Positions 7,858 to 41,841 of a stretch of 64,000 bases of DNA are shown in pieces. The translations under genes were made by a program, and so were the position numbers. The stretch comes from Dactylellina haptotyla (taxonomy: Eukaryota > Ascomycota > Orbiliomycetes > Orbiliales > Orbiliaceae). How positions within the stretch are numbered: the first letter of the stretch is position 1; each line of letters opens with the position of its first letter. The DNA lies in assembly GCA_031310005.1 (NCBI GenBank), contig CM062380.1:3782001-3846000 (forward strand), written 5' to 3'. The notes beneath the pieces were generated by a model that saw only the letters and a program-made list of their open reading frames with translations, did not search any database and had not been told where the DNA came from.

Positions 7858-9294
7858 TAATGTCTTCATTTTCTTCCTCTTCCCCTCTTTTAAAGATTCA
7901 TTTTTTCATTTGGGGGTTTTTCTCATCGTTATTATCTCATATTTTTTAGTCTGGGTGGCGTCAGGTTTTGTTACTTTTTCTTCACCTTATTGTAAATACT
8001 TTTCAACACCTTCATCCTGGCTTTCTTTTTCGGTTTGATAGAAGTTGCACTATAAAATTAGATAAGCGAATATTATTCCTCCGAAACTGAACTTGAGCCT
8101 TCCAGAAAATACTGTAACTATCTGGTAACATTCCTTGCCTAACCCGTCAACTCCTCCTACCGTTGCCACGACACGTGTTGCACCCTGCCTAAATCCAGTA
8201 TGCCAGCTGTCTAAGATAGGGTGCCATTTCAGCGGATCCAGACAAACATGGCGCCAGGTCGACGCGCACGTTGTTAGCTGCAAGTTGACATGGCTATAGA
8301 CGACAGCAGTACTTCGGAGGTATCTATACAATGCGACTCAAAGAACTACAAACCAGACTTCAATTGAATGACAGCGTATTTCTTTCTTTCCAAAGTAGCT
8401 TCGATATCACGAAACAAAACAATCGAAAGAGAACGGTTGAATATATTCGCATCATCCAGAAATAGTGCAATACTGGAGACACAATTGAAGTCGGCATGGG
8501 CAAGCCCAGAGAACGGCTCCAGAATTTCGAAAAATAATATTAATACAGAACGTTGCCACTTGAGCAACTTTCAGATCTATTGAAAACTCGTTAGAAGACA
8601 ATTGCATATGTTCACCAGGAACTTATTGCTTACATTAAACTGAAAAGAACAGATCTGGTTGATCATATTAGCTTCGAAGACCTTGTATCTTTGGGAGCTA
8701 CTGATACTTACACTACACTTGATCTGTAGGCAACAAGTTAGTTTAGGTATGATCAGGAATCATTGGGGTGAAAGACTAACCTAAGCCTGTTCAGAGATTA
8801 TATGTTAGCATTGAAGAGGTGAGGAAATTGGCGGATAGCAATGAGGGCATACCAAAATGGCAAAGAGAGCTGAGGAAGGAAGGAAGAGAAAAGACTAGGA
8901 GAAAGCTGGAAGAAGTGCTGTTTTATAGTACAGACTTACAAATGACGAGGGAATCTTCGTTGACACTCGGCAACTTCGCAACGCAAATATTCCAGTGTCG
9001 TCCCAATTGGCAAATCTATACAAAATGGGCAACACCGGCGTCTGGCAACGAGACTATAAATCTATAATATATTTCTAAAATCAGAGAGTTAATCCCTACC
9101 CCGACGGATAAGAAAATCAGCACTGGGAACCGCCCCCGATGAAACTACCGGTTATAGAAATTTGTATTTTGCCAAAATGCAATGTTTTATTACTAGGTAT
9201 GTAGCTGGCAGGAGTTCCATAATCTACGTTTCACTCATGATATACAAAAAATGTCTTATAATGCTATACTTAGTGACATCTCTAACTGAATATA
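7858..9294. other. Intergenic, no clear gene
   Basis: AT-rich sequence between the hypothetical gene and the 3' end of the beta-galactosidase gene. The best frame, 8819-9067 (+, 82 codons, Arg/Glu-rich start), has no recognisable motif or splice support, so I do not annotate it. Confidence 0.45.
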
Positions 9295-23264: not shown

Positions 23265-24753
23265 CTTGATTGCACTTAAGATCTTGTTACTGCTTTGGGG
23301 AATTCGTAGATCTATACACTTTAAAGCGGATGTGCTCGAATATGATCAGCCTCCTCGTAACTGGGAGAGCCGATATTTATCTACTTGGGCCCCCATTCCC
23401 CTTAAGTCAGCCGCAACATGCTGGTCCGATTGTTTCTCCCCCATTATCGCTTTTTCTTTCTCTGAATAGGGTTTTTTCAAGCCTCCAAATAAACGCGATT
23501 CGGTCGAAGGATTATTAAGAGTGCCGCCAAGATAATCCTTTGTTCTCGATTCTGCCGCCAAGCGCCGCCAAGTTGGTTAAATCGAGGCTCTATTGGTTCC
23601 GTTTCGCGAGAAATTTGCTTGGCTGGCTGGAATCTCCGTGTGACAGATCTCTGTTGCACAGGCACTCTAGGACTAATTCGTTGGCTGGTGGCAAATTTTC
23701 ACCAATTTGCAGATTTTTAGCGTGCTCCCGTCAAGGCGGATTACTTGCGTCGGTGCGATTTCTAGTGCAAGGCTTTTATTGTGTACATGCTGGGATGCTG
23801 ATTTTGGCATGAGTCTTTCCCCTGACAAGAAATCTCGTGGCACGTAAGCATGGGATTTATGAGAAATACTGAAATTGAGCATGGTAGAAAATCCATTGGT
23901 TGGATGCGGAAATCCCGCCATTGTGCCTCTTACATAGAAAGCAGCTGCGATTAGCGATGACACGGAAACAGCTAATGTTTCTTGGCTTCCTTGTTATCGG
24001 AGCTGAGGAGTTGTTATCTTCTTGAAGCGGAACTTAAGGCTCGATTTGAAGCTTGGGCCATTTCGTGGGCGGCATGACAATCTTGAATTCTCCCCTTCGC
24101 TCTTCGCGGCCAACTCACAAGCCCCTCTGGATCAAGGGGGACAAATCTGGTGCTTGGCAGTATACTCTTCTCAAGCAATCTAAGAGGCTGAACGGCAGTA
24201 TTTTAATTCTCAATTCACCAAAAATGCAAAAGTCATGAGCACGAATCAGAGACATACAGGGCAATATTAAAACGCTGTTGCGGCCAAGATTGAAATGTTT
24301 TTGAAGGATTCCGAGGAATGTGATGAGCCGCACTTAGCGCGTAGTCTAAATTGGCAGCTGAATGCTTTGAACCTATGCCATCAATCATGCCATCCCAAAG
24401 CTTGTTCAAGATGAATATTTGGTTTGTGTCTATAAGCGTGTCTATCAACGTCAATCGCGAACTCCAGATCACGGTGTTAAAGTATCAAATGTAGCTACTT
24501 AAGTACGTCAGCCCGTCGATAGGATGGACCTGGACGGGTGACCTCTCTTCTCAAATGCCACTGGTATTCTCGCGCAGCTCTGGGCCACCACTGCCCACTC
24601 CTGCCAGCTGGTTACGATACTGCCTGCCAGCGCCTACGAGCACCAGAAAGAAAGGTGTTGTTGATTCTGATGCGGTGCGATACCGCACGCCCGACAGCAC
24701 CCACCGCCCTGACACAATCGCCTGGAAGATTCCCTCGCTCCTCTTCCAGAAAC
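23265..24753. other. Intergenic: promoter of the membrane protein to the U2 promoter
   Basis: No gene is supported. Short open frames on both strands overlap without motifs. Confidence 0.5.
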
Positions 24754-24760
24754 TATTTAA
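24754..24760 (+). promoter_or_regulatory. TATA-like box of the U2 snRNA gene
   Basis: TATTTAA lies about 50 bp upstream of the inferred U2 5' end (24806), followed by a CT-rich stretch (24778-24805), a common fungal Pol II start-site layout. Confidence 0.45.
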
Positions 24761-24822
24761 ACGGGTTTCGCTGTGTCTTCTCTTCCTCTCTTCTCTTTCC
24801 TCCTCAGCTCTCTTTGCCAATC

Positions 24823-24888
24823 GTAAGATACCCCCCATAGTGCTCGCTTTCATCCATCACGACCTAACGTTGCTAACTTCGACTACAG
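24823..24888 (+). other. Intron 1 of the U2 snRNA gene (66 nt)
   Basis: Donor GTAAGA, branch sequence TTGCTAAC (24870-24877) and acceptor CTACAG, all matching protein-gene introns in this window. It interrupts the loop of U2 stem I. Removing it brings TCTTTGCC next to GGCTTAGA across an AATC loop. Confidence 0.85.
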
Positions 24889-24928
24889 GGCTTAGATCAA
24901 GTGTAGTATCTGTTCTTTTCAGTTTAAT

Positions 24929-24983
24929 GTAAGTCCTTATTCACGATGATACTTCTTGAAGTTTCTGCTGACATCTGGTAAAG
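24929..24983 (+). other. Intron 2 of the U2 snRNA gene (55 nt)
   Basis: Donor GTAAGT, branch sequence TGCTGAC (24966-24972) and acceptor AAAG; AAG acceptors are also used by the PL4 and ECM4 genes here. It lies in the loop of stem IIa, 20 nt after the GTAGTA branch-recognition element. Removal restores the expected TTTAATATCTGA order. Confidence 0.85.
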
Positions 24984-25466
24984 ATCTGAAAGTCACTCAA
25001 ATTGGGTGATTTATGGTATAATTCTATTTTTGAACTTCGGGGCCAATCTCTGGGCTTGCCTACGTTGGCTCCACCGTGTCTCTGGTATCGCACCATCTCC
25101 AGTTGATGCAACCTTGTTCTCTTTTCTCCATGGTCTGCTTTGTGACATCAAAGCTGCTGTAGAGAATTTGATCAACCCACAAGCTTGTGTCTCATATTTT
25201 ATAACGTTGCTGAGGTCTCTAGCATCCAGCGAGGGTGTCGCCAACCTATGAACGAATCACATCTCCCTCATCATTACAACCATCATCACATCAACCATAA
25301 AGAATGCTATCTTCGGTATAATAAGCTTTTCATTGGGTATCTGTTGGGTATCTCCAAAAATCAAACTAAATACAGGGTATCCTATAGTATGTACGTCGGA
25401 GTATATCCGATCTCGCCCGCTTCCCTCTCTCACCCCAGTAGATTCTCTTCTAAAATCCAGGTCACT

Positions 25467-33523: not shown

Positions 33524-36500
33524 TTATTTTTCTGATTCCCGTCCTGTATCCGAAGAATAATATTGCAGTTGAATCGCAAGCCTAGGATAAGGGTATTTGA
33601 CCTTCTTCCTCTTAACTCCGATTTCGGGACAGACTATGAGTACCCTTGCCGGCAAATACCACTCACTGCTGTGGAGCAATAGCTTCATCCCATATTTGAC
33701 AAGCGCAGCAACTTCCCCCAGACTTAGAATTGTCACCCATTCAATATTTGACTCGGGAAATAGGTATGGCCGATCCGGATTTGAACTTTGTGGTCTGGGA
33801 ATATCCACGACCTGTCCATTTTCACATGATATAGACGGTGTACGTTGGGCAAGCATATCTAATACAGCCTCCCTTGTGCGAAGACTGGGCTTCCCGATAA
33901 TAAAATATTTCAAATTGACAACTTGACCTTTTGCTTGATCCCTAGCCAGTGTCCAGAGTCTCTCGTAGGCTTCTGATAACAGCAATTTCGTATTCTCTGT
34001 AATTGGATTGGCAGGCGGAGTAGTAAGGAATAAAATACCGTACTCCTGACTTATTGATAATTCGCAAATGATATCCTTAGCGTTTTCGTAAAATTCCAAT
34101 CTGTCTACTTTGCTGCTTACCGGTGGCAGATCGCTAGCCCTAAGATGTGGTCTAAACATCCTAAACGCCAGAGGCAAGTCTTCCTTTGGTCCTAGACGAG
34201 TTTCGAAGTAAAATGACTTCCCCGATATAGGGAGGGGGTCTTCTCGTATAAGGAAGGGGTCTTCTCGTACTCCAAGGTTTATGCTTAGCGTAACAGAGTT
34301 GATTTGTTTCAATAGCTCCATCCCGTGATACATATTGAACGCAAAGTCACTCCCGAATTGATCTCTAAGTAGTCTCGTAGGTGGATCAGGTATCTTTGTG
34401 ATTTTGGGAGTAGATTCGGGGGTAGGTTCGGGGGTGGGTGCTGGAGAGCTGGTATCCGTGTTTCCTTTGTTAGGCGCACCTGGTGAGTCCTGGTCTCGCG
34501 CGGGTAAGTCCTCAATCGCCGGTAATGATGGATGGTCGCTAGGCGGCACTGCGAGCACAATAACGAATTCAGGTTTGTATATTAATTCAAGTTCGTCGTT
34601 TGATCCATCCTGAACCCATCGAATGAAGACCCTCTGTACTAGTTTTCTTGCAATAAACTTCTCCAGGAAGAATTTCGACGTCATTCGCTGGACCGCCAGC
34701 ACTTCCAACGTCCCGAATACAATACCTAAGACATCATTGATAGATGTTCTTTGGTTTAAATTCCATCTATCTAAGAGCAAACTCTGTTCGAGGGATAAAT
34801 TTAGAAGATTAAAAACCTCTCTTACAAGGCTTGTTGTTTCAGCCGTGAGATTTAAAACTGAGATATGTGTTATCTCATAACCACTCTTACGTAGCTTACG
34901 GAAATCTAAATTATCCGCGAAGGCTATATATATTGCATCAGCTATATCACTAGCCCCAGGAATAGCTTGAGTTCCGCTGATCGAGGATATCGCGACGTGT
35001 CCAAAAGAAGAAGAATGCTTGTCTGAATCTTCTTTCGCGGCAAGTATCGCAAAATTATAAGTGCACAAATTACCGGGTGATTTTGCTGCCACTGCACTTG
35101 CAATCATCCTGGTGTATTGGAAAGACTCCGCCATTCCGATTTCTGAGGACAATATCGCATTATTCTGTTCCTCCGTGAGCTCCTCTCGATGCTCTAATAT
35201 GTACCTTCGATACTCCACTAGCGAAGATACAGGGGCACTGCTTCCGCCGAGTTCGATCTTGCTTGAAACAATATTGTATGCACCCCTTAACACTTTGAGC
35301 TTGACATATATCGTCCCGTCGACAACTCCCTTGTTTTTGCCACCTGTCGCTCTGCTGTAGTCTGGAACTCTCAATAACGGGAGTGCGACACCTTTAGTAA
35401 TCGCAATCGTTTCAGCTAGAAATTTTATGTCCAAATTCTTCTTCTTAATTGCAATTCTTGAAAACTCGAGACTGGGTTCGTGTATATCACTCTGGGCAAA
35501 ACCATCATCATCTGGTGCCATCCGAAGCGTTAATTTCTCGCTCTCGGCAGTGTTGAGCCTGATCAAAAAAGTGAATTCCAAATCCATGGGCAAATTCTCG
35601 CCTTTCGAAATCTTAATTCTCCGTCGGTGCCCGATTTCGACTGAACTTATCGTTGGTTGACCGAGATCTAAATACCTCTGAACATTTGAAAGCATCTTGA
35701 AAATAGCCTCTAACTCCAGCGTCGTCTGGAGATCCCGATAAATATCATCGTTTATCTTTTGCCCATCCCAGACATCCGAATTTTCCAATCCAAGTTTCAG
35801 GTTCCGCGACTCTTTGGACGCCCAGATCGTTAGGCTTGCTAGTTTATCGGTCTTCTGTTTCTCGAATGCTTTTTCTATTAAATTTGATGTCGTCGGCGAG
35901 ACGTACATGAATGCGATGTCATGGAGAGCACTGGCCCCTTCGGATTGTTTCCATATTCCGAAGATAACATTTCCTAAATCTTCAGCCTTATGAACGCCAA
36001 TATCATAGAGGTCTGTCTCGAAGAGTATTAGCTTTTCTCTCCCCGATGTCAATGCCTCCGCTGGAATTTTCTCCGGATCCCATTGAAATGTCTTTCGTTT
36101 AAAAGTAGGGGGCAATATCGTTGCGGCTTTTCGTTTTCGTGTGTTACCGGCGGGCTCGATATTGGCAATCGACAGGAATTCTAGCGTTGAATCTTCAAAT
36201 GCCTCTCTGGCGTTATCAGGGAAATTCTCTGGGTTGCTATCCATTTCTATGATGACTAAAGCCGTATGACTAATGCTATCTTCCTCTCTATCTGATGGGA
36301 GTTGCAATGAGAGCATAATCATATAATTTTGTGAAGCTTGATTATTTTGAGATTCTTTCCCCGGTAGGATATACCTGATAGATCTCAACTCTAATCCTTC
36401 AAATTGTTTCGGCCAAAAGCTAAGCATCTTTTGGACCGCTCCAATCTCTGGTGTTCCGAGCAACGCTGCCCAAATATTGAGACTATCCACATCATCCTGA

Positions 36501-37243
36501 GGCAAGTTTAGCTCAAAAAGATCCCCTGCTTCTACAAAATAGTCCTCCTCCGCCTTTCTGAGGATTTTAAAAGTTTCTTGATTCTGAAGATCCAGAATAG
36601 TGACGAACCTCGGCATAAGATCCTCCCTATCCGTTCCCGGGTTTTCTTTGGAGTACTTGGTCCTGGCAACTCCCCAGGCTAGAAACATCAAGTTTTGGTA
36701 TTCATACCACAAGTTCGAATCCTTCCAGCTTGCAACAATATGGCGATCTTTTACCGATATCGAGAGCCTACCTACTACACCACCCCCAAACTTTGACGTA
36801 AATTGAATGGCTAAGTAAACCCTCTCCGGTGATATGAAACCACCTGAACCTATAGATTCTAAGAAACTTTTCGCTTCCGAGGGGCATATTTCGAACCCGT
36901 CACCGCCTATTCCGCTTGAAGTGTAAAACTGGCGAATAGATTCGCTTGGATTGGATTGGTCACTTTGTTGCTTTGGGGCATTGAATAGTTCATAACCTCT
37001 TTTCTTAGCCGACTCCCATTCTGAAAAATCAGATTTGCTTGATTCTCCTTCTCCACTACGTCTTTGGAGAGACTGGACTCTCTCGCCATACGACAAACTC
37101 TCTTTATTTTGAACAAATTTACTTCCAATTAAATCGTTCGATTTATGTTCAGTTTTGCAAGGTGTCTCGGACCCTGAAGTGAGACCCAAAGCTTCGAAGA
37201 GCAAGAAGAACAGGGCGCACGTGACGACGTAAAAGAGATACAT
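33524..37243 (-). CDS. Large secreted four-module protein of unknown family, copy 1
   Basis: I do not recognise this protein. One uninterrupted frame of 1,239 codons, unlike the intron-rich neighbours. It begins with a signal peptide (MYLFYVVTCALFFLLFEALG) and a basic, Ser-rich region. Four divergent modules of about 250-340 residues follow, each with a hydrophobic strand before Trp, a segment like VTILDL..QETF and a core motif: LLGTPEIGAVQKM (about 261-273), LELEAIFKM (509-517), VFGTLEVLAVQRM (842-854) and LSLGEVAALVKYGM (1173-1186). After each comes a ~25-residue stretch ending in alternating hydrophobics (LRSIRYI, VQRVFIRW). A PT-rich linker (SPAPTPEPTPESTP, near 933-946) separates modules 3 and 4. 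There are few cysteines and no membrane anchor. A related gene lies 1.07 kb upstream on the same strand. Function unknown. Confidence 0.75.
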   Translation of the reverse strand: MYLFYVVTCALFFLLFEALGLTSGSETPCKTEHKSNDLIGSKFVQNKESLSYGERVQSLQRRSGEGESSKSDFSEWESAKKRGYELFNAPKQQSDQSNPSESIRQFYTSSGIGGDGFEICPSEAKSFLESIGSGGFISPERVYLAIQFTSKFGGGVVGRLSISVKDRHIVASWKDSNLWYEYQNLMFLAWGVARTKYSKENPGTDREDLMPRFVTILDLQNQETFKILRKAEEDYFVEAGDLFELNLPQDDVDSLNIWAALLGTPEIGAVQKMLSFWPKQFEGLELRSIRYILPGKESQNNQASQNYMIMLSLQLPSDREEDSISHTALVIIEMDSNPENFPDNAREAFEDSTLEFLSIANIEPAGNTRKRKAATILPPTFKRKTFQWDPEKIPAEALTSGREKLILFETDLYDIGVHKAEDLGNVIFGIWKQSEGASALHDIAFMYVSPTTSNLIEKAFEKQKTDKLASLTIWASKESRNLKLGLENSDVWDGQKINDDIYRDLQTTLELEAIFKMLSNVQRYLDLGQPTISSVEIGHRRRIKISKGENLPMDLEFTFLIRLNTAESEKLTLRMAPDDDGFAQSDIHEPSLEFSRIAIKKKNLDIKFLAETIAITKGVALPLLRVPDYSRATGGKNKGVVDGTIYVKLKVLRGAYNIVSSKIELGGSSAPVSSLVEYRRYILEHREELTEEQNNAILSSEIGMAESFQYTRMIASAVAAKSPGNLCTYNFAILAAKEDSDKHSSSFGHVAISSISGTQAIPGASDIADAIYIAFADNLDFRKLRKSGYEITHISVLNLTAETTSLVREVFNLLNLSLEQSLLLDRWNLNQRTSINDVLGIVFGTLEVLAVQRMTSKFFLEKFIARKLVQRVFIRWVQDGSNDELELIYKPEFVIVLAVPPSDHPSLPAIEDLPARDQDSPGAPNKGNTDTSSPAPTPEPTPESTPKITKIPDPPTRLLRDQFGSDFAFNMYHGMELLKQINSVTLSINLGVREDPFLIREDPLPISGKSFYFETRLGPKEDLPLAFRMFRPHLRASDLPPVSSKVDRLEFYENAKDIICELSISQEYGILFLTTPPANPITENTKLLLSEAYERLWTLARDQAKGQVVNLKYFIIGKPSLRTREAVLDMLAQRTPSISCENGQVVDIPRPQSSNPDRPYLFPESNIEWVTILSLGEVAALVKYGMKLLLHSSEWYLPARVLIVCPEIGVKRKKVKYPYPRLAIQLQYYSSDTGRESEK

Positions 37244-38311: not shown

Positions 38312-41300
38312 CTAGGATACAGCCTGTAACAAGTCCATAGTTTCTCCATCATTCTTTGGAGAATTAAAAAGAAGCTTAACAAACGCTTCAAGACTCTTTG
38401 TTTCAGCGTTATATCGCACAAGAATCGAGTTTATTACCGCCCTGTATGTTCTTTCTGGGTGATCCAACAACATTTTTTGCACAGCTCCAACTTCAGGGGC
38501 ACCGAGCAATGCTAGAAACATAGCCCTGTTCTCTGCGCTCCTATTAGCACCCGCCTGATAAACACGAATCACTCCATTTTTATATAGCACCTTTCTTCGG
38601 TCTAGGCTTCGTATTATTTGTTGTGTGTATGGGCTGAGATGGAGTAGTGACACGCCGCGAAGGCAATGCCGCCTCATTAGTTCTGAAAGTTCTGCTGGCG
38701 CGTGAGAATCCGGGGAAACCGCGAGAATCTCGGTTGAATACGCATTCCAAACCTGAAAATAAATATGAGCCATGGTTTTCATTACGTCTTCAACTTCGAA
38801 ACGCCACGGTCCCAGAACATTCTCTCAATTATTAGGTGTCTGTCAGCATCTGAAACTAAGACGAAAGCTTTATACAGTGCCTCCACAGATGATACTATCA
38901 GCTGAACATACGTCCCCGGTCTCTTGGGATCTTCTTTTGTCTTCATGCCAATTAATTTAAAGAGTTGAATGGCCTGAGACGGACTTGGAATGTTCGTTTG
39001 CAGTTCCACTATCAGTCCTAGACCAGTAGCTGGCCAAGATTGGGGCTTTCGAAGATAGCGAAGAATCTGCGCCTCTAATTCAAGCCTCTCTCCGGTATCC
39101 AGCGCCATCGCTAGATACGAATTTTCTCTGTAATCATTCAAGATCGCCTTCGCAGTTGATTTAGATTTGCAAACCACAAAGATCTGTGGCCTCCTTCCCC
39201 AGTAGAGAGCATTACCACCCAGTTGCCAGTGGGGATCAGTATTGGTCCATCGAATGAAAATCTCTGCGATTCTTTGGGAGTTCAAGTCGCGAGAATATCT
39301 AATATTCATCTCTTCGATAGCGATAATCTCCGCGGTTCCTAGCATAGCGAGCCATCTTGACTTTTCGTAAAGCGTAGCTTTTTCATCGTTTACACTGTCT
39401 CCTGACATCCATATTTGATCGTCAGGTCCTAGATCGCCTTGGATAAAGACTTCTTGAATTATTGCTTGCGTTTCTTGCCCGATATCTACGATCGAAAAAT
39501 AGTGAGGTAGATTCAATCCGGCGGACTTCTCCAAGTTGGTGATTCTCGAGGCATCATAGAATTTCCGCCAACACAGATACAAGATATCGCTCAACGGTCG
39601 AATCTCGTCATTGAGACCTTCAGTACTACCCGGGTAGCTTACAATAGCCATATGTGCCATATGAGCAGATTTAAATAATTTCAGCTGTTTGTTAACGACA
39701 ATTTCTATATGCTGTGGTTGTGCGATATCTTCGGCCGCCCGCTTTTGGAAGAGCTTTTGGGATTTAAAATTGAAACTTGCGCCCGATGCCGCAATCGCAT
39801 CTGTTATCAGGTCTGACGTAGGATTGGCTTCTAGTTTTGTTGGCGCATAATCCAAGACGAATTTTTCTATTCCCCGATAGCTTATAGCTGGCGGTTTTGC
39901 CTGGGCGAGGTCCATAGCGGCACGCAGGTCAATGCCAACCTCAATATTATGAATCCACTCGTCAAGTCTTAAATTTTCTTCCATCTCGGCTTCGGCTTCG
40001 TCCGTCGTCAGTCTCACTAAGAGAATTGGTTGGTCTTGAAACTCGCCCTCGACAGGATAGCTGACCTCAACGGTAGATACCACAAATAACGAGTCCTGAA
40101 ACTGAGTCATTTGAACTACCGCAGAGAGCTCTCGAGTCGACCAAAATGCACCAATGAGACCCCGATCTCGTTCGTTGAACCAATCCAGAATCAGCACATC
40201 GTGGCCTTCAAGACCCAGCTCCTTCCTTGCATTTTCGATAACGGCAAGAGTCTTTTGGGCAATGGCAACCAAAATGATGTCTTGTAGCGTCTGATAGCTT
40301 CCCTCTCTCTGCTCCCAAACTTGCCATATGATATCACCAAGCAATTCATCTACTTCCACCCCCTCTTCGCACTCCATGATAACTGCATGCTCCTCTTGGC
40401 CTGATGTTGATATTTCAAGTTCTAGGTTGGTACCTAGTGCCGTCAAACAATTCACTCTAACTGTCTGGTACGTAGGTAGATGTGGATAGCCATATAGACC
40501 GGGTGCATAGTTATACGTTGTACCCGCGAGCGCATTGAAGACAGGATTCATAGTAATATCAAAAACATCCTCTCCTGAATAGCTCAACGGACTCTTGACT
40601 GGTTCCTCCGAATATATACTATAACGGTCGCGAAGGCTAATAGTCGTCAAGAGTTCTTCGATATGTTCAGTGTTTATTGATTTTTTGGGGCCTTTCGTGG
40701 ATTGTAGATTCTGTTTCAGTTCGACCAGAATATCTGCCGTTTTCTCTGGGCCATCTGCGCGAGAGTTGAAATTTTTGATCCAAAAATGAACTTTCGATAT
40801 GAGACTATTTTGGAGGCCCCTACGATATGTGTTTGCCATCGTTTGCACAGCTGCGATCTCCACGGTACCAATGAGAGCATCCCAAATCTCGATATCTTGA
40901 GAATCATACATTGTGTGTCCCTCAAAGGACGGCACTGGCATTGAAAACCAGCTTTTACTTTTATCCCGACGTTTGCTGATTATGGTAGTAATGATTTCTA
41001 GAGTCTGGGAACTAGATTTACGAAGATCGTATATCGTAACATATTTCAGAGGCTGTCTTTGTTCACCAGGTGGAGGAGCTGCACCTGCTTGCCACCCCCA
41101 ATACATCAGATTTGACGGATCTGTAGAGGCTTCCGTCCATGAAAATACTAAATGCTGATCTTTTGGTGACACCAGAATGACAGCGCCAGGCTGTAGTGCC
41201 CATTTCTGAAACTCAAATCTCTGATAAGAAGGTCCATTTCGAATAACGTTGACACCAATCTGACGAAAGAATGCAGGATCAGGGTATGATTTGTCGTGGA

Positions 41301-41841
41301 ACGGCGAATTCGACCTCCAGAAAGGGGGATAATTGGGCTCTGGTACCCATGCATCAGTAGCCTCAGTTGACGTGGAATGCAGTTCAATGCTATGCCGCCG
41401 AATTGTATCTCCTTTTCGTACGGAGTCCCAATAGTCATGGTGTTTTCTTTCTTCGCTATCGCCAGACCGTGGTGATATTATTTTCGTTGTCCCTGGCTGT
41501 CCGGCTTGTCCACTAAGTTGTCTGCTATAGAGCGTCCGTTGAATACGGGGCTTGCTTTCAAGCAATAGTTCCCTCGAACTACCTCGAGAAGTACTAGAAG
41601 TCCTGAAAGGTTCTTTTGTGCTTTTTGGGGCTCTATTCGACTGCTTTCTTATTCGTTTACTATCGCTACCACCAGCCCAATCAAATGTTTGAGGCTGGTT
41701 GGCATTCGAGTATTGAAAGACTTCATTATCTATAGGGGTACCTAGGTTTCCGAAGACAATGGACTGACTCCCAGCATCCCCAAAGCTTAAATATATTGCC
41801 AAATATATGGACAGATTAGTTAATATTTTAGACCATTGCAT
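38312..41841 (-). CDS. Large secreted four-module protein of unknown family, copy 2, one-base frameshift
   Basis: A paralogue of the 33.5-37.2 kb gene. The start chosen is the Met of MQWSKILTNLSIYLAIYLSFGDA, a signal peptide; an in-frame Met lies six codons upstream. Modules carry LIGTVEIAAVQTM, WSTRELSAVVQM, MLGTAEIIAIEEM and, in a second frame, LLGAPEVGAVQKM. The first frame stops at 38782-38784 (TAATG overlap with the next ATG). One extra T in the TTT run (plus strand AAA, 38799-38801) joins the frames through GVFEVEDVMKTMAHIYFQVW, matching the strand-plus-Trp opening of the other modules, for about 1,176 residues. A spliceosomal intron does not fix the frame. So the gene is either mis-assembled by one base or newly broken. 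It is intron-poor like its neighbour. Function unknown. Confidence 0.7.

Follow-up and report, generated by a model that had tools for sequence, protein, structure and literature searches.

The window, by which we mean the whole 64,000-nt stretch of DNA analysed here, contains two U2 snRNA genes interrupted by segments that resemble spliceosomal introns. The first (copy A, 24806-25113 (+)) had been reported in a preliminary description of this DNA as a U2 gene cut by two introns, and this reading held: the 5' domain is restored once GT-AG segments of 66 and 55 nt are removed, and with the 3' end used in that description the spliced product comes to 187 nt, the approximate length it had given. 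The second (copy B, 8871-8440 (-)), absent from the preliminary description, becomes canonical only when four GT-AG segments, of 66, 57, 57 and 57 nt, are taken out. Its internal exons measure 6, 12 and 21 nt, and its third intron interrupts the branch-recognition sequence itself (GUAGU^A); splicing of exons as short as 6 nt is rare. Without its four introns the 5' part of copy B reads AGCTCTCTTTGCCATTTTGGCTTAGATCAAGTGTAGTATCTGTTCTTTTCAGTTTAATATCTGAAA, of which the final 48 nt are the same as in copy A and in a third gene outside the window, L001. The features of the two window genes are as follows.

24730-24736 (+): PSE-like word TTCCCTC of copy A, 76 nt upstream of the gene
24754-24760 (+): TATA-like TATTTAA of copy A, from a scan for upstream words
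24806-24822 (+): the 17-nt exon 1 of copy A, comprising the 5' end of the gene and the 5' half of stem I; its first 13 nt recur unchanged in copy B and L001
24823-24888 (+): copy A intron 1, 66 nt, GTAAGA..CTAAC..CTACAG, in the stem I loop
24889-24928 (+): the 40-nt exon 2 of copy A, comprising the U6-pairing region, the branch-recognition sequence GUAGUA and the 5' arm of stem IIa
24929-24983 (+): copy A intron 2, 55 nt, GTAAGT..CTGAC..GTAAAG, in the stem IIa loop
24984-25113 (+), 3' end approximate: copy A exon 3, 3' arm of stem IIa, stem IIb, Sm site ATTTTTG, stems III and IV
25124-25167 (+): hairpin downstream of copy A, a possible 3' processing signal (putative function)
8947-8953 (-): PSE-like word TTCCCTC of copy B, from the upstream-word scan
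8922-8927 (-): TATA box TATAAA of copy B, from the same scan
8853-8871 (-): copy B exon 1, 19 nt
8787-8852 (-): copy B intron 1, 66 nt, GTATGC..CTAAC..GAACAG
8781-8786 (-): copy B exon 2, the 6-nt micro-exon GCTTAG
8724-8780 (-): copy B intron 2, 57 nt, GTTAGT..CTAAC..CTACAG
8712-8723 (-): copy B exon 3, the 12-nt micro-exon ATCAAGTGTAGT
8655-8711 (-): copy B intron 3, 57 nt, GTAAGT..CTAAT..AACCAG, within GUAGU^A
8634-8654 (-): copy B exon 4, 21 nt
8577-8633 (-): copy B intron 4, 57 nt, GTAAGC..CTAAC..CAATAG, at the site of copy A intron 2
8445-8576 (-), 3' end approximate: copy B exon 5, 3' arm of stem IIa, stem IIb, Sm-like ATTTTTC, stems III and IV
8384-8432 (-): hairpin downstream of copy B

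Both genes match the Rfam U2 family even when left unspliced, and the alignments falter at the 5' parts. Copy A matches over 24873-25117 (+) (108 bits, E 7.2e-21); its 5' end misfits, and 57 nt take the place of 2 nt in the model. Copy B matches over 8683-8440 (-) (79.2 bits), and its alignment breaks down at the intron-cut 5' part. Beyond these two copies, a permissive Rfam search of the window gave no match reaching E 0.5, and a test of the window for a larger duplicated unit found no repeats of 60 nt or more (20-nt seed).

The host fungus is related to nematode-trapping species, and one protein encoded in the window is 88% identical to a protein of the orbiliomycete Dactylellina haptotyla, the sole match of that search. 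At 38315-41841 (-) in the window, the Dactylellina homologue aligns in two frames that join at 38800, which may reflect a frameshift, a sequence error or another cause. Beside this gene, the stretch 35867-37075 (-) shares about 23% identity with that Dactylellina protein and is a predicted distant paralogue of the 38315-41841 gene.

Searches of the genome covered the 39.8-Mb assembly in its 11 contigs. Among the best-scoring 46 of 878 candidates from the family search, Rfam recognized at least five U2 genes, all of these on contig 2, and the five carry 0, 0, 1, 2 and 4 introns. All of them exceed the RF00004 gathering score of 46: in addition to copies A and B, L001 scores 131.9, L002 116.7 and L004 105.8 bits, again unspliced. 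The three genes with the canonical core (A, B and L001) lie within about 46 kb and carry 2, 4 and 1 introns, respectively. The single L001 intron, 141 nt long (L001:1675-1815 (-)), occupies the site of copy A intron 1; three CTCACGTGC repeats lie inside it and may account for its length. The other two genes, L002 (L002:1501-1697 (-)) and L004 (L004:1501-1700 (+)), are intronless and diverged: each has one additional nucleotide between GAUC and UGUAGUA, and stem IIa is altered on both sides in a manner that preserves pairing. They possibly represent a second class of U2. Uninterrupted U2 genes, the existence of which the preliminary description had singled out as a point to check, do occur elsewhere in the genome, but they are diverged and neither has the exact canonical core.

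The distribution of the core in the genome is narrow. An exact 21-nt canonical core word occurs at three places, which are the three interrupted genes, and allowing up to 3 mismatches extends the count to eight: the interrupted genes (0 mismatches), a decayed fragment and four places with 3 mismatches each. The decayed U2-like fragment (L014:6440-6493 (-)) lies a few hundred bases upstream of L001 and scores 28.8 bits, under the cut-off of 46. A second U2 pattern hit 14 places in the genome, three of them U2 genes; two others were put to Rfam and gave no match. An exact 34-nt U2 word had no match in public viral contigs or genome contigs.

We evaluated the inserts as introns in several ways. 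Nine inserts in the genome's snRNA genes, seven of them in U2 and one each in U6 and U4, can all be placed as GT..AG segments that leave the product unchanged, a placement that shuffled inserts allow at rates of 0.0028-0.0060 each. Boundaries are fixed by invariant sequence in five of these only (A2, B2, B3, B4 and U6), which form the strict set because those of A1, B1 and L001 fall in the stem I loop, where the sequence of A, B and L001 is variable and offers no independent check, and because the U4 donor, GTTCGT, was picked as the one that restores U4, with GTGAAT as the alternative. A branch motif (CTAAC, CTGAC or CTAAT) lies 11-18 nt from the 3' end in 9/9 inserts; of shuffled inserts with their ends kept, 15-20% have such a motif 8-40 nt from the end. 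For comparison we took seven coding introns from the tubulin genes and a neighbouring M14 carboxypeptidase gene of the same genome (nine junctions tried, yielding seven distinct introns, two of them found via two reference proteins each). These are GT..AG introns of 50-89 nt, the 56-nt carboxypeptidase intron having a close rival placement, and six of the seven contain CTAAC, CTAAT or CTAAA within the last 28 nt. The donor, branch and acceptor signals attributed to both copy A segments in the preliminary description resemble these coding introns.

A dynamic program that removes up to four GT-AG segments, scored on the 48-nt U2 core, restored the core with 0 mismatches by one removal in copy A and three in copy B, where the fourth intron is needed for exon 1. 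Among 60 shuffles of the copy B region none did better than 21 mismatches, and among 57 other stretches of the window none did better than 20 (60 had been drawn, and 3 near copies A and B were dropped).

These observations weigh against the view that the segments are non-spliceosomal insertions, either retained in the RNA or removed in another way, which we consider very improbable: every insert has a donor, a branch site and an acceptor akin to those of the genome's coding introns, and retention would disrupt stem I, stem IIa and the branch-recognition sequence of copy B. Least credible of all is that errors in assembly or sequence produced the extra introns, since separate copies have intron sites in common (the sequence of A1 can be aligned with that of the L001 intron, and A2 and B4 share a position) and splice signals are not expected from sequence errors.

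The RNAs that would result from splicing retain the pairing expected of U2. Stems I, IIa, IIb and IV, listed for copy A in the preliminary description, agree with our pairing analysis, and the Sm site ATTTTTG, also listed there, agrees with the Rfam alignment. Across the set, stems I, IIa and IV are fully paired in 5/5 genes (arms picked by hand), as is stem IIb in every gene but L002, where it has 4/6 pairs. Stem III is as in the Rfam alignments, with some non-standard pairs, and an AUUUUU Sm site appears in those alignments for all five genes. GUAGUA is intact in A, L001, L002 and L004, and in copy B only with intron 3 removed. The U2 5' ends of all five genes can also pair with the tail of the U6 gene L006 (helix II) at -9.9 to -13.9 kcal/mol, compared with means of -3.6 to -4.1 kcal/mol for shuffled U6 tails.

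Promoter-like words flank the same genes. In each of the five, TTCCCTC lies at -62 to -90 on one strand or the other, and a TATA-like box lies at -37 to -56. The word was first spotted by eye and counted afterwards; it lies upstream of 10 of 14 small-RNA matches, against a rate in the window of 0.022 per 200 nt, and ranks top of all 7-mers, in 10 of 12 regions, when L007 and L011 are left out. The matches that lack it are U1 L010, the intron-bearing U4 L013, U6 L007 and U5 L011. Downstream of A, B, L001 and L002 lies an alike inner hairpin with a 6-nt loop; L004 folds otherwise.

On this basis, we think it very likely that copies A and B are working U2 genes whose introns, two and four of the ordinary U2-type spliceosomal kind, are spliced out to give standard U2. 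The exon/intron anatomy, the splice signals, the kept pairing, the promoter-like words and the series of copies are read from the sequence itself. The main competing explanation, which we judge improbable, is that the interrupted copies are pseudogenes and the diverged intronless genes do the work. In its favour, the genome has two intronless U2 genes that carry TATA and PSE-like words, and the decayed fragment upstream of L001 indicates that U2 debris does occur here. Folding of the 3' 164 nt is also equivocal: that of copy A outperforms shuffles (z -2.53; 3/200 at least as good), whereas that of copy B barely does (z -1.06; 25/200). Decay is, however, difficult to reconcile with the pattern of conservation, in which the 48-nt core is identical in A, B and L001 while the RNAs are 67-70% identical outside the core. 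Stem IIb is paired 6/6 in all three despite sequence differences, and stem IV of copy B pairs in flipped form, as CCAG/CUGG rather than the CUGG/CCAG of A and L001. This stem-pairing control is modest, because arms crossed among the three genes also pair fully in 2/6 combinations for IIb and 4/6 for IV. The interrupted copies additionally retain promoter words and downstream hairpins, and splice signals persist in all inserts.

If A and B are working genes, their expression can be outlined; here we infer transcription, actual splicing, the function of the product and the order of events. A TATA/PSE-like snRNA promoter would drive transcription, and the introns would be excised by the spliceosome via intron definition, also around the 6-nt and 12-nt exons. 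The hairpin 3' of the gene would probably guide 3' end formation, and the spliced RNA would be standard U2, pairing with U6 and with branch sites. First rounds of splicing would be supplied by the intronless U2 genes and by U2 already in the cell, so the loop would be self-dependent yet startable. The preliminary description had held that a double-intron U2 would be needed for the maturation of its own transcript; the interrupted gene stands, but the case for a strict need is weaker, since the process could be started by the intronless type. By the same token, since intronless U2 genes exist, the interrupted copies need not be essential.

Interruptions appear to extend to other small RNA genes of this genome. 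One of two U6 matches, L006:1441-1608 (+), carries a 67-nt intron directly before CGATACAGAG, and this intron contains a tRNA-type B-box-like word, GTTCGAATCC. The other, L007:1501-1620 (-), is probably a chimeric pseudogene, because the U6 5' part is missing and a tRNA-like stretch stands in its place (by eye), with the changeover near the U6 intron site. For U4, L013:1501-1691 (-) has a 60-nt intron in the 5' stem-loop and the other match, L012, has none. The single U3 match, L016:1501-1834 (-), appears to be interrupted in its 5' stem-loop as AGACCACACTTC|GTATGT...CTCACAG|ATAGGATC (by eye), and this insert is a probable intron; TTCCCTC and TATAAATA lie upstream (also by eye). Three U1 matches, all under the Rfam cut-off, showed no large insert across the matched length. 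U5 gave a single genome match at E up to 10, L011:1501-1660 (+), with an imperfect Sm site, a B-box-like GGTTCAATCC downstream, and neither a TTCCCTC nor a TATA match upstream. A U5 pattern search of the genome found no exact GCCTTTTAC followed by ATTTTTG within 20-50 nt, and the true U5 of this genome may be unusual or interrupted.

The introns were also compared with one another. Of 36 pair alignments, four exceed a z of 2.5 (A1-L001, 5.05; B1-B3, 4.09; A2-U4, 4.05; A2-B4, 2.85). Among these A1-L001 alone is convincing, and B1-B3 and A2-U4 could be chance among 36. We also considered whether one intron seeded the others, and these alignments do not support such a spreading element. Four distinct U2 intron sites all fall in the first 57 of 187 nt, which would occur with a probability of 0.0086 if sites were random and independent, in a test run after the sites were known and with the stem I sites of A, L001 and B counted as one. 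The intron-bearing part of U2 is the region engaged in pairing with U6 and the branch site; in U6, the intron comes directly before the ACAGAGA box. Because of this clustering of U2 sites, we tentatively propose, as a possible rather than a probable origin, that excised introns reverse-splice into spliceosome-held snRNAs and are then copied back into genes, giving a self-dependent U2 set that could be started via the diverged intronless U2.

Some fungi are known to have introns in snRNA genes: the fission yeast U6 intron contains a B box, and U1 and U5 introns are known from Rhodotorula, a genus whose member R. hasegawae is a basidiomycete yeast. Closest to the present case is the U2 snRNA gene of Rhodotorula hasegawae, for which the title of Takahashi et al. 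1993 (via PMC2586383) announces an mRNA-type intron, likewise a spliceosomal intron within a fungal U2 gene. As far as that title goes, R. hasegawae has one intron, whereas here an ascomycete (Orbiliomycetes) has one, two and four in three paralogues, with micro-exons and an intron in the branch-recognition sequence. U6 introns have been described in fission yeast and other fungi (Tani and Ohshima 1989; Canzler et al. 2016; both as cited in PMC5832005); one U6 gene here likewise has one intron and a B-box-like word, but in this genome U2 and U4 are interrupted too. In the passages available to us, Canzler et al. 2017 (PMC5832005) single out U3 and U6 as the only small structured RNAs in which frequent interruption is known, a pattern that the probable 5' stem-loop intron of the U3 gene here would join, and those passages contain no multi-intron U2 gene, unlike this genome. 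Our literature search, with most subscription journals outside its scope, likewise found no multi-intron U2 gene. With snRNA introns already known in fungi, the striking part is the four-intron gene with its micro-exons and the 0/0/1/2/4 series.

Introns in U2 would make the spliceosome dependent on itself for its own parts. A graded set within one genome offers a test of the intron load that an essential splicing RNA tolerates, and the same genes would allow tests of 6-nt and 12-nt exon splicing, of feedback from the level of U2 on U2 maturation, and of intron gain. With introns situated at the part of U2 and U6 that acts at the catalytic centre, intron gain by reverse splicing would become directly testable.
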